In this document: positions 4,532 through 7,339 of the stretch, one piece after another
How positions within the stretch are numbered: position 1 is the first letter of the stretch
Layout: each line of letters starts with the position of its first letter
Origin: an uncultured Cellvibrionales bacterium
GTDB lineage: Bacteria; Pseudomonadota; Gammaproteobacteria; Pseudomonadales; Cellvibrionaceae
Direction: 5' to 3'
NCBI GenBank assembly: GCA_913050115.1
Contig: CAJWZU010000002.1
Span: forward strand, 1 to 64,000
DNA: 64,000 bases
Notes under the pieces: generated by a model
Databases searched by the model: none
The model's input: the letters and a program-made list of their open reading frames with translations, nothing else
What the model was told of the DNA's origin: nothing
Made by a program: the position numbers and the translations under genes

Positions 4532-4578
4532 GTCTGTTATTATTTCAATATGCTTTGTTAAACTTCGGTCGGGATACT

Positions 4579-5163
4579 ATGCGTTTATTGCTTTCGTTGA
4601 TTTTATTGCTGCCAAATGCATCGGTGCTGGCAGATATCTATCGTCATGTCGATAGCCGTGGTCAAGTCAGTTATACCGATAAGCCACCCCATGATGGCTT
4701 TATAAAAATCAAGAACAGCTGGAAGGGCTGGCAGGTAGCGCATCGTAGTGGTGACTACAAACGCAATAAAAAGCGTTATCAGCAATATATAGTGACGGCG
4801 TGCGAGCGTTATAAGGTGTCTGAACCGTTAGTGCAGGCGATTATCCATGCCGAAAGTTATTACAACCCTGTGGCGTTATCGAGTGCAGGCGCTGTCGGTT
4901 TGATGCAGTTGATGCCTGCAACGGCTGTGCGTTTTGGGGTCTATGATCGTCAAGATCCCGAGCAGAATATTAACGGCGGCGTACGCTATTTTAGCGAACT
5001 GTTAGAGATGTTTGATGACGATGTGAGCTTGTCACTGGCGGCCTACAATGCCGGTGAAAATGCGGTTAAGCGCTATGGTCGTATTCCACCATACCCTGAA
5101 ACTCAGAACTATGTTCGCAAAGTATTGGCATTAAATATTCGCTATCAGCGTAAAGAATTATAA
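4579..5163 (+). CDS. Secreted lytic transglycosylase (DUF4124 + SLT domain)
   Basis: Cleaves the MurNAc-GlcNAc bond of peptidoglycan with anhydro-product formation. 194 residues from the ATG at 4579, chosen over the in-frame ATG at 4555 because it opens directly with a signal peptide (MRLLLSLILLLPNASVLA). Residues about 20-45 form a DUF4124 module; the rest is a family-1 (Slt/MltC-like) goose-lysozyme-fold domain with catalytic Glu92 in AIIHAES, then GLMQLMP and the AAYNAG motif. The last 26 codons are the parent of the tandem copies that follow the stop. Which named Mlt/Slt enzyme it corresponds to is not clear. Confidence 0.9.
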   Translation: MRLLLSLILLLPNASVLADIYRHVDSRGQVSYTDKPPHDGFIKIKNSWKGWQVAHRSGDYKRNKKRYQQYIVTACERYKVSEPLVQAIIHAESYYNPVALSSAGAVGLMQLMPATAVRFGVYDRQDPEQNINGGVRYFSELLEMFDDDVSLSLAAYNAGENAVKRYGRIPPYPETQNYVRKVLALNIRYQRKEL

Positions 5164-5439
5164 AGGTTATTCCACCCTCTTTAGCGGCTGAAGCTCAAAA
5201 TTACGTTCGTAACGTATTGGCGTTGCATATTCGCTATCAGCGCAAAGAATTATAAAGGTTATTCCGCGCTCTTTAGCGGCTGAAACTCAAAATTACGCTC
5301 GTAATGTATTGGCGATGCATATTCGCTATCAGCGTAAAGAATTATAAAGGTTATTCCGCGCTCTTTAGCGGCTGAAACTCAAAACTATGTTCGCAAGGTA
5401 TTGGCATTAAATATTCGCAATATGCGTAAGCATAGCTAG
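5083..5439 (+). repeat. Tandem copies of the transglycosylase gene's 3' end, 92-bp period
   Basis: The coding end of the transglycosylase gene (copy 1, from 5083 to the TAA at 5161-5163) is followed by three more copies starting at 5169, 5261 and 5353, exactly 92 bp apart. Copies 2-4 still read as a C-terminus when translated in the right frame: an IPP/IPR start, then (E)xQNYxRxVLAxxIR. Copies 2 and 3 end in KEL plus TAA; copy 4 ends in RKHS plus TAG (5437-5439). Many differences between copies are at third codon positions. Copy 4 is mosaic: its first half matches copy 3 and its second half matches copy 1. None has an obvious start codon, so they are not expressed as proteins. They would lie in the 3' untranslated region. 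Confidence 0.9.
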
Positions 5440-5521: not shown

Positions 5522-6592
5522 TTAGTGCGTTAATTCTTCAGTTACCCATTCAATCACTTCGGCATAGTTGTCTGGTAACAAGCTTTTAAGTTGCTGCATG
5601 GACTCAATTAATTCTGCTTGGCTGTCGCGACAGAAGTTGATATGACCGACCTTACGGCCTGGGCGTACAACCTTGTCGTACCAGCTGAGCTCGGCACCAG
5701 CCACTGCTAGCCAGTCGTTATTCAGGTCGGTGCCGATTAGATTGATCATTAGTGAGTGGCCACGCACCGTTGGCTGTGAGATGGGCAGCTTAGCGACGGC
5801 GCGCATGTGGGCTTCAAATTGGCTGATATTACTGCCCGCTTGAGTCCAGTGGCCGGAATTGTGTACCCGGGGTGCAAGCTCGTTAATCTGTAGTTTATTG
5901 CCGGTGCGAAATAGCTCCATTGCCATCACTCCGACATAGTCGAGCTTGTCCATCAGCTTGCCCAGCATCTGTTCGGCTTCAGCTTGCAGTGGTTGTAAGC
6001 GGCTCAGGTTGGCGATCGAGGCCATCAATATACCATTGACGTGCAAGTTAAGGGTCAGCGGATAGAAGAAACTGTTGCCCTTGTGGTCGCGCATACCGAC
6101 TAGTGAGATTTCTTCATCAAAAGCAATCGCTTGCTCGGCAATAGACTGGTTGCGGAAATCAGCGGGAATGGCCGAGCCTTCGCTCTGCTTCAGCCAGTGC
6201 TGGCCTTTGCCATCATAACCACCGGTGCGGCGTTTGAGCAGTACTCGCTGGCCGAGTGCTGCGTGCAGATCTGTCTCAAGGCTGCCATCGGTGATATCAA
6301 ACCAGGGTGCGGTGGCAAGGCCTAGTTCATCAATCAAGGATTTTTGGGTAAAGCGATCAGCCAGAGTGGCGAATACGTTCTTATTGACGAAGCCTGGGTG
6401 GGCGGCCAATTGACTAGTGGCATCGGTTTCTGGCCACTGCTCGCGCTCGGCGGTGATAATATCCCCTTCCGACAGGTGCAGTGAGTGGTGGTCTTCGATA
6501 TCCACCGGCTCAACGTCCAGTGCTAGTGGCGTGGCGGCATGCTTGAGCATGGCGCCTAGCTGGCCTGCACCTAGTACCCAAATTTTGCTCAT
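5522..6592 (-). CDS. purK: N5-carboxyaminoimidazole ribonucleotide synthase PurK
   Basis: ATP-grasp enzyme of de novo purine synthesis; makes N5-CAIR from AIR, bicarbonate and ATP in the cytosol, which PurE then rearranges. 356 residues, normal length, with the PurK N-terminal nucleotide-binding motif LGAGQLGAM and the ATP-grasp core (GGYDGKGQ). It follows purE on the same strand, but the 252-base gap is filled by three extra tandem copies of the beginning of purK itself. Its start lies in GATGAGC, where the stop of the preceding copy (TGA) overlaps the purK ATG, so translation may be coupled. Confidence 0.95.
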   Translation of the reverse strand: MSKIWVLGAGQLGAMLKHAATPLALDVEPVDIEDHHSLHLSEGDIITAEREQWPETDATSQLAAHPGFVNKNVFATLADRFTQKSLIDELGLATAPWFDITDGSLETDLHAALGQRVLLKRRTGGYDGKGQHWLKQSEGSAIPADFRNQSIAEQAIAFDEEISLVGMRDHKGNSFFYPLTLNLHVNGILMASIANLSRLQPLQAEAEQMLGKLMDKLDYVGVMAMELFRTGNKLQINELAPRVHNSGHWTQAGSNISQFEAHMRAVAKLPISQPTVRGHSLMINLIGTDLNNDWLAVAGAELSWYDKVVRPGRKVGHINFCRDSQAELIESMQQLKSLLPDNYAEVIEWVTEELTH

Positions 6593-6832
6593 CGCGTTGT
6601 AGTCTCTTTTACATGCTTTAGCATGGTGTCACCCAAGCTCTGGCCAGCGGCTGGTACCCAAATTTTGCTCATCGCGTTGTAGTCTCTTGTGCGTGCTTTA
6701 GCATGGCGTCACCCAAGCTCTGGCCAGCGGCTAGTACCCAAATTTTGCTCATCGCGTTGTAGTCTCTTGTGCGTTCATGAGCATCGCATTAGCCAAGGTC
6801 TGGCATGCACCGAGTAGCAAAATTTTACTCAT
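6534..6832 (-). repeat. Tandem copies of the purK 5' end, 80-bp period
   Basis: Reading on the minus strand, start codons followed by an MSKI-encoding sequence lie at 6592 (true purK), 6672, 6752 and 6832, exactly 80 bp apart. Each copy keeps the AGAGACT Shine-Dalgarno-like segment. Copies 2 and 3 encode MSKIWV..AGQSLGD.M, copy 4 (next to purE) MSKILLLGACQTLANAM; all resemble the true N-terminus MSKIWVLGAGQLGAM with a two-codon insertion. Copy 4 has diverged most and sits only 12 bases after the purE stop, so it may mark the original purK start. Confidence 0.9.
6589..6832 (-). other. Three consecutive 27-codon mini-ORFs leading into purK
   Basis: Because the unit is 80 nt (26 codons plus 2), each copy reads 27 codons from its ATG and then meets TGA inside the sequence ATGA, where the next ATG overlaps the stop. 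The mini-ORFs are 6749-6832, 6669-6752 and 6589-6672, all free of internal stops; the last stop overlaps the purK start codon. This is the geometry of stop-start translational coupling. Whether the peptides are made, or the ribosome reinitiates, is inference. Confidence 0.6.
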
Positions 6833-6844
6833 CAACAGTCTCTC

Positions 6845-7339
6845 TTAAGCTTCTACGCGAGGGTCGGGATGCGACAGCACGGTTTCGGTTTGTTCGGCGC
6901 GGAAGGCTTCAATACGAGCCGCCAGCTTGGCGTCGTTATTGCCCAGCATTTGGCTGGCCAGTAGACCGGCGTTAAAAGCACCGGCTACGCCAATGGCAAG
7001 GGTACCTACGGCGACGCCTTTAGGCATCTGCGCTATGGACAGTAAGCTGTCCATACCATTTAAAGCTTTAGACTGCACGGGCACGCCCAGTACAGGCAGA
7101 CGAGTTTTGGAGGCAATCATACCGGGCAGGTGAGCGGCGCCACCGGCACCACCGATAATCACCTGAATGCCGCGGTCGGCTGCATTTGAGGCAAAGCTCA
7201 TCAGTTTGTCGGGGGTGCGATGGGCGGAAACAACTTCCACCTCATACGGTACCTGCAGCTTGTCCATGATTTCGGCGGCGGCTTGCATGGTTGGCCAGTC
7301 GCTCTTAGAGCCCATAACCACGGCTACTTTTGCTTGCAT
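6845..7339 (-). CDS. purE: N5-carboxyaminoimidazole ribonucleotide mutase PurE
   Basis: Converts N5-CAIR to CAIR, the step after PurK in purine synthesis. 164 residues, normal class I length, with the VMGSKSDW substrate-binding motif, VVSAHRTP and the [11 protein letters not shown] loop. AGGAG sits 7 nt before the ATG at 7339. First gene of the purEK operon; no PurR box was recognised upstream. Confidence 0.97.

Follow-up and report, generated by a model that had tools for sequence, protein, structure and literature searches.

Bacterial minisatellites, or VNTRs, are built of head-to-tail units. Termination-reinitiation coupling (PMC6728339, PMC10666635, PMC12548453) links two functional genes in co-directed frames, the downstream start codon lying a few nt from the upstream stop codon or sharing 4 or 1 nt with it. 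In reporter work on six gene pairs a spacing of about 20 nt almost abolished coupling, and the last 15 nt of the upstream gene were enough for coupling in both pairs tested (excerpts of PMC10666635); a review cites studies in which coupling tolerates larger spacing (excerpt of PMC12548453). Archaeal Borg elements, according to parts of PMC9879509, have numerous tandem repeats of independent origin within a single genome, repeats that are rare in the genomes used for comparison, and their ORF repeats give rise to amino-acid repeats within proteins.

The arrays described here have traits of each of these systems. Like minisatellites they are head-to-tail (TRF), with units of 80-152 bp in most arrays; unlike minisatellites, they straddle gene starts and take in coding sequence, and in most of them the frame and the position of the stop are preserved. 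The mini-ORF chain upstream of purK has the spacing of coupled pairs, being co-directed with very short stop-start distances, whereas its units are truncated tandem copies of the downstream gene's start (one to five deep across the arrays) rather than functional genes. As in Borgs, tandem repeats are numerous in this one genome and rare in those compared with it; in contrast to Borg repeats, most periods are not multiples of three and the units span gene boundaries; at purK, where 80 = 3x26+2 and stops separate the units, the repeat is not of the Borg type, in which the unit is a multiple of 3 within one ORF. Tandem gene-start copies acting as coupling frames were absent from the titles and abstract openings of the literature searched, in which subscription journals were thinly covered.

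The window, a stretch of 64,000 nt from an uncultured Cellvibrionales bacterium (contig CAJWZU010000002.1), contains purE and purK on the minus strand, parted by an insert of 252 nt (Table 1). An earlier note, made from the letters of this DNA, had described serial copies of the purK start in the insert, and its anatomical claims hold: four starts stand 80 nt apart (ATGs at 6832, 6752, 6672 and, for purK itself, 6592), an AGAGA segment precedes every one of them, within AGAGACTGTTG at the first and AGAGACTACAACGCG at the other three, and the three frames are each closed by a TGA overlapping the ATG that follows, with no internal stop in any frame. The stop-start distances along the chain are -4, -4 and -4, and the step from purE to mini-ORF 1 is looser, with a gap of 12 nt. 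All three mini-ORFs have two additional in-frame codons that are absent from purK, and the copies therefore probably share an ancestor that postdates this two-codon change.

Table 1. Features of the purE-purK junction and of the neighbouring array (positions in the window)
Feature	Coordinates	Strand	Remarks	Evidence
purE	6845..7339	-	164 aa, AIR carboxylase	Pfam AIRC 1.9e-62
Ribosome-site-like segment AGAGACTGTTG	6833..6843	-	belongs to mini-ORF 1	
mini-ORF 1	6749..6832	-	27 codons; most diverged purK-start copy; ATGA end overlaps mini-ORF 2	
mini-ORF 2	6669..6752	-	27 codons; ATGA end overlaps mini-ORF 3; RBS-like AGAGACTACAACGCG at 6753-6767	
mini-ORF 3	6589..6672	-	27 codons; ATGA end overlaps purK start; RBS-like AGAGACTACAACGCG at 6673-6687	
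purK	5522..6592	-	356 aa; frame intact; RBS-like AGAGACTACAACGCG at 6593-6607	Pfam ATP-grasp 2.2e-49, PurK_C 5e-14
80-bp tandem array	6560..6833		3.4 copies	TRF; direct-repeat search concordant
92-bp-period array	5096..5429	+	copies of the 3' end of the transglycosylase (SLT) gene at 4555-5163	TRF, Pfam SLT

Among the purK loci compared, this arrangement is confined to the present one. The spacing between purE and purK lies between -4 and +5 nt in 79 of 110 loci, a total that includes the present one with its 252 nt, the start positions of distant homologues being approximate in this survey. A local direct repeat by the purK start (at least 29 matches in 40) was found at this locus only, one of the 109 loci long enough for the test, itself among them. 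The layout is thus missing from all 108 of the other purK loci examined, which correspond to fewer than 108 independent genomes, some being present twice (L004 and L078, for example, have an identical junction). These results bear on the idea that the copies are a dedicated device for PurK, either a rheostat of serial reinitiation in which copy number sets the level or a leader-peptide attenuator. Three coupled copies could indeed multiply reinitiation losses; the layout is nevertheless missing from the other purK loci examined, similar layouts occur at functionally unrelated genes (see below), and codon counts do not indicate that the peptide has been conserved between copies. We regard such a device as highly improbable, and the suggestion that the array tunes the PurK level finds no support.

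Copies 2 and 3 differ at 5 nt, and copy 1 differs from the other two at 16 and 21 nt. The array is therefore not newly formed, and it does not represent a collapsed repeat of the assembly; a recent duplication, which the earlier note had offered as the simpler reading, is not favoured for mini-ORFs that are 6-25% apart. The synonymous and non-synonymous comparison that it had recommended, expressed as counts of changed codons, gave ratios of 5:9, 3:13 and 1:4 between mini-ORFs, mostly non-synonymous and without sign of amino-acid constraint on the copied peptides; against purK the counts were 5:6 for copy 1, 6:1 for copy 2 and 4:4 for copy 3. The main rival to any functional reading is neutral tandem duplication, in which copies are born open, a period of 3n+2 falls by chance on a gene that begins with ATGA, and the time for decay has been too short. 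Taken by itself, the purK array is compatible with it. The open frame of the mini-ORFs is inherited from the gene, and the ATGA overlap follows automatically from a 3n+2 period and a gene that begins ATGA, at a cost of about one in three. Under simulated neutral divergence the chance that no internal stop arises in any of the three frames is 0.43-0.55, and the chance that start, frame and stop all survive is 0.05-0.21, according to how the differences are apportioned. With neutral probabilities this high the purK array alone proves little, and the argument that stop-free frames need constraint is weak at this locus; what does suggest constraint comes from the other start-copy arrays of the genome.

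The window contains a second array, placed between the SLT gene and the convergent purK (Table 1), which was the reason for sampling the genome for further gene-end copies. It comprises four copies of the SLT 3' end, the last with a different C-terminus, and is one of 17 gene 3'-end copies in 1581 ORFs. The sample covered 1.98 of 2.72 Mb, divided into a discovery set of 1,252,542 bases (window included) and a hold-out of 726,453 bases, and the relay prediction was fixed in writing ahead of the hold-out sampling. The discovery set, with 1003 ORFs of 100 aa or more, yielded 10 copies of gene starts, lying up to 420 nt upstream, and 11 downstream copies of gene ends; the hold-out gave 5 and 6 in 578 ORFs. 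Relatives gave 2 and 1 in 565 ORFs (735,546 bases), and named gammaproteobacterial purEK loci 1 and 0 in 488. Gene-end copies are accordingly about five times commoner here, with 32 in 1581 ORFs against 4 in 1053 control ORFs (Fisher p 2e-4; p 0.004 for the hold-out alone), the 32 being raw matches that include ones dropped later and the control matches likewise being counted as found. One control place, L157, contributes both a start and an end match and has the appearance of a palindromic repeat.

Several of these places merit separate mention. Near-identical, apparently recent tandem copies of a 3' end occur at a radC-family gene (L139:8185-8687) and at a second SLT gene (L129:18387-18806), and rlmE has arrays at both ends, with five upstream start copies and an end copy before ftsH (L178:12495-12995 and L178:11819-11970). 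Local repeats were present at 8 of 60 contig starts compared with 23 of 1754 internal windows; the contigs that start in local direct repeats are the window's own, L122, L178, L184, L187, L192, L239 and L246. Assembly may thus tend to break at arrays, in which case more of them would be hidden and copy numbers underestimated. The same tendency lends something to an assembly error at purK, for the number of near-identical units could be wrong; the array nevertheless lies in one continuous contig and its copies are told apart by 5-21 differences, so that such an error is hardly credible. With regard to the origin of the duplications, a common mobile sequence was rejected, since short-word blastn of 23 array regions returned self-matches only and none crosswise at E 0.01. 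Loss of a repair gene was rejected for MutS, the ExoI C-terminal domain, RecJ and XseA, all four of which scored above the cut-offs. An extra 44-residue match to the ExoI C-terminal domain lies at a contig end (G000:C45:22699-22830), besides the full match on C31.

Curation of the matches left 11 genes with diverged upstream tandem copies of their own start in the 1.98 Mb sampled. In the discovery set these are purK, ubiH, rlmE, rnd, rnfC, rnhB and the gene of a DsbD_2-family membrane protein, and in the hold-out spoT, rapZ, a calcium/sodium antiporter gene and an enoyl-CoA-hydratase/3-hydroxyisobutyryl-CoA-hydrolase-like gene. Matches dropped from the discovery start copies were window:192 (contig-start repeats), L135 (an in-frame repeat within one protein) and L137:16817 (a copy of the upstream gene's tail); L246:264 (contig-start repeats) was dropped from the hold-out. 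The start-copy array on L129 entered the relay counts only after the hold-out, arrays of 3'-end copies were excluded from the 11, and the start codons of the 11 genes were picked by eye and from family alignments, no gene finder being used.

In all 11 arrays an in-phase stop lies between -13 and +7 of the gene start: at -4 in purK, ubiH and rnfC, -1 in rnd and rapZ, +2 in rnhB, +3 in the antiporter gene, +4 in rlmE, +7 in the DsbD_2-family gene, -10 in the hydratase-like gene and -13 in spoT. An intact copy frame ends between -13 and +4 in 9 of the 11; the relay frames of rnhB, whose array has decayed, and of the DsbD_2-family gene, whose array has lost the homologous start, are without a homologous start codon, which leaves nine intact relays. 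Individual copies behave alike: 18 of the 19 with a recognisable homologous start are open to between -14 and +4 of the next start (the first rlmE copy being the -14 case), and the sole exception is rnhB copy 1, which reads 7 codons from its ATG to a TAG. The first ubiH copy is partial and without a start, and at spoT it is the first copy that supplies the relay frame, which continues through a second copy, now without a start of its own. At spoT an AAGGAG site precedes the start copy and the gene's own start has only GGGGAA; this strong Shine-Dalgarno-like site stands before an 83-codon fused start copy (L219:6200-6439). To judge from these two sites, the relay could carry most initiation at spoT.

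These placements were compared with ordinary gene starts of the same genome that have an open upstream frame, ORF starts in this null being the 5'-most start codon. Within a strict window (-4..+4) 8 of the 11 arrays have an in-phase stop against an own-genome null of 0.30-0.36 (p 0.004-0.015; the strict rate in relatives is 0.27-0.28), and within a loose window (-14..+10) all 11 do against 0.52-0.53 (p < 0.001). The hold-out alone points in the same direction without reaching significance (strict 2 of 4, p 0.31-0.45; loose 4 of 4, p 0.07-0.08). It is important to point out that the idea was born of the discovery arrays, that the windows were set after those arrays were known, that n is 11 and that the relay tests overlap and are not independent evidence. 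In addition, copy and gene stand 3n+2 nt apart in 8 of the 11 arrays (p 0.009 against one-third, post hoc), and this is the phase that ATGA and TAATG overlaps have.

The neutral account can be confronted with the same arrays. Simulated neutral decay left 3.2-3.8 intact arrays of 11 where 9 are seen (p about 2e-4 to 6e-4), in a simulation that begins from the present mini-ORFs, places half of the gene-mini differences on the mini-ORF, and uses uniform substitution without indels and an assumed chance of 0.3 or 0.6 for rnhB and the DsbD_2-family gene. Because detection requires start similarity and so favours preserved starts, this test of intact frames is too favourable; scoring only the absence of internal stops (9 of 11) gives p 0.03-0.07, and the truth should lie between both tests. 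Intact, well-placed frames are thus in excess over the neutral models used, in arrays that recur at 11 genes and whose nearest copies, in the nine intact cases, are 13-30% diverged from their genes. Neutrality has in its favour the weakness of purK taken alone, the codon counts, the decaying rnhB copies and the fact that phase 2 by itself places the stop well in 0.50-0.65 of ordinary open frames. We hold it to be possible, though somewhat doubtful; the evidence across the start-copy arrays suggests constraint on the coupled layout.

Chains were also looked for across whole junctions, from the upstream stop to the downstream start. Among 12 such junctions, with a strict step defined as -4..+6 and shuffled sequences as nulls, three had strict and five had loose chains, and the shuffle nulls were beaten only partly. 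Strict chains run from recR to rnd (-4, -1; shuffle null 0.07), from rnfB to rnfC (-4, -4; 0.49) and from rnfD to rnfG (+3, +1; 0.007), rnfB having been identified by its ferredoxin-type domains and its position. Looser chains run from purE to purK (+12, -4, -4, -4; 0.095), which its first step of +12 keeps from being strict, and from rlmE to ftsH (0.10). No chain was present at pepP-ubiH, yidD-yidC, lpxB-rnhB and four others of the 12 junctions. Visual reading of the 3'-end arrays that lie between genes showed a clean relay at rnfD-rnfG and none at yidD-yidC, L185, L114 and L137.

Taken together, the purK mini-ORFs are diverged tandem duplicates of a segment comprising the ribosome site and the first 21 or so purK codons, and we put at about even the chances that they have been kept for ribosome hand-over. 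Gene ends of this genome appear to undergo local tandem duplication unusually often, and the purK copies would be one of its products. When a gene start is duplicated in tandem, one copy of the gene stays whole, and such duplications would for that reason be tolerated at gene ends; between tightly spaced genes they would also move the downstream start away. Where each copy ends on the next start, ribosomes leaving purE could be passed to purK by termination-reinitiation over the 252-nt insert, and copies lying between genes would be more likely to persist where their frame leads ribosomes on to the following start. We infer that the relay is really translated and that selection acting on the supply of PurK has maintained it; each gene also has a possible ribosome site of its own, so that the relay is perhaps unneeded.

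The open frames could alternatively serve against polarity, with translating ribosomes covering the insert and keeping Rho off the operon transcript while reinitiation at purK is secondary. Identical anatomy would fit this proposal, and the loading of Rho on untranslated mRNA is stated as the cause of polarity in a passage of PMC12548453. Covering the insert, however, does not require the close spacing of stop and following start that the arrays have, and we consider the proposal unlikely.

To return to ribosome hand-over, a wider version of it can be put forward tentatively: continuing duplication of gene starts throughout the genome, combined with purifying selection, would turn the copies that survive between genes into 'stepping-stone' ORFs, which encode otherwise functionless peptides and serve solely to bring ribosomes across the duplicated DNA to the true start. 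Genes of an operon would then be able to move apart and yet stay translationally coupled. If confirmed, the arrays would provide natural evidence of selection on the stop-start distance itself, irrespective of the peptide, with junk frames kept for hand-over, and would caution annotators that short start-proximal ORFs in this genome are not separate genes. Differing in length and phase within one genome, they amount to natural constructs for studying the range and frequency of reinitiation.
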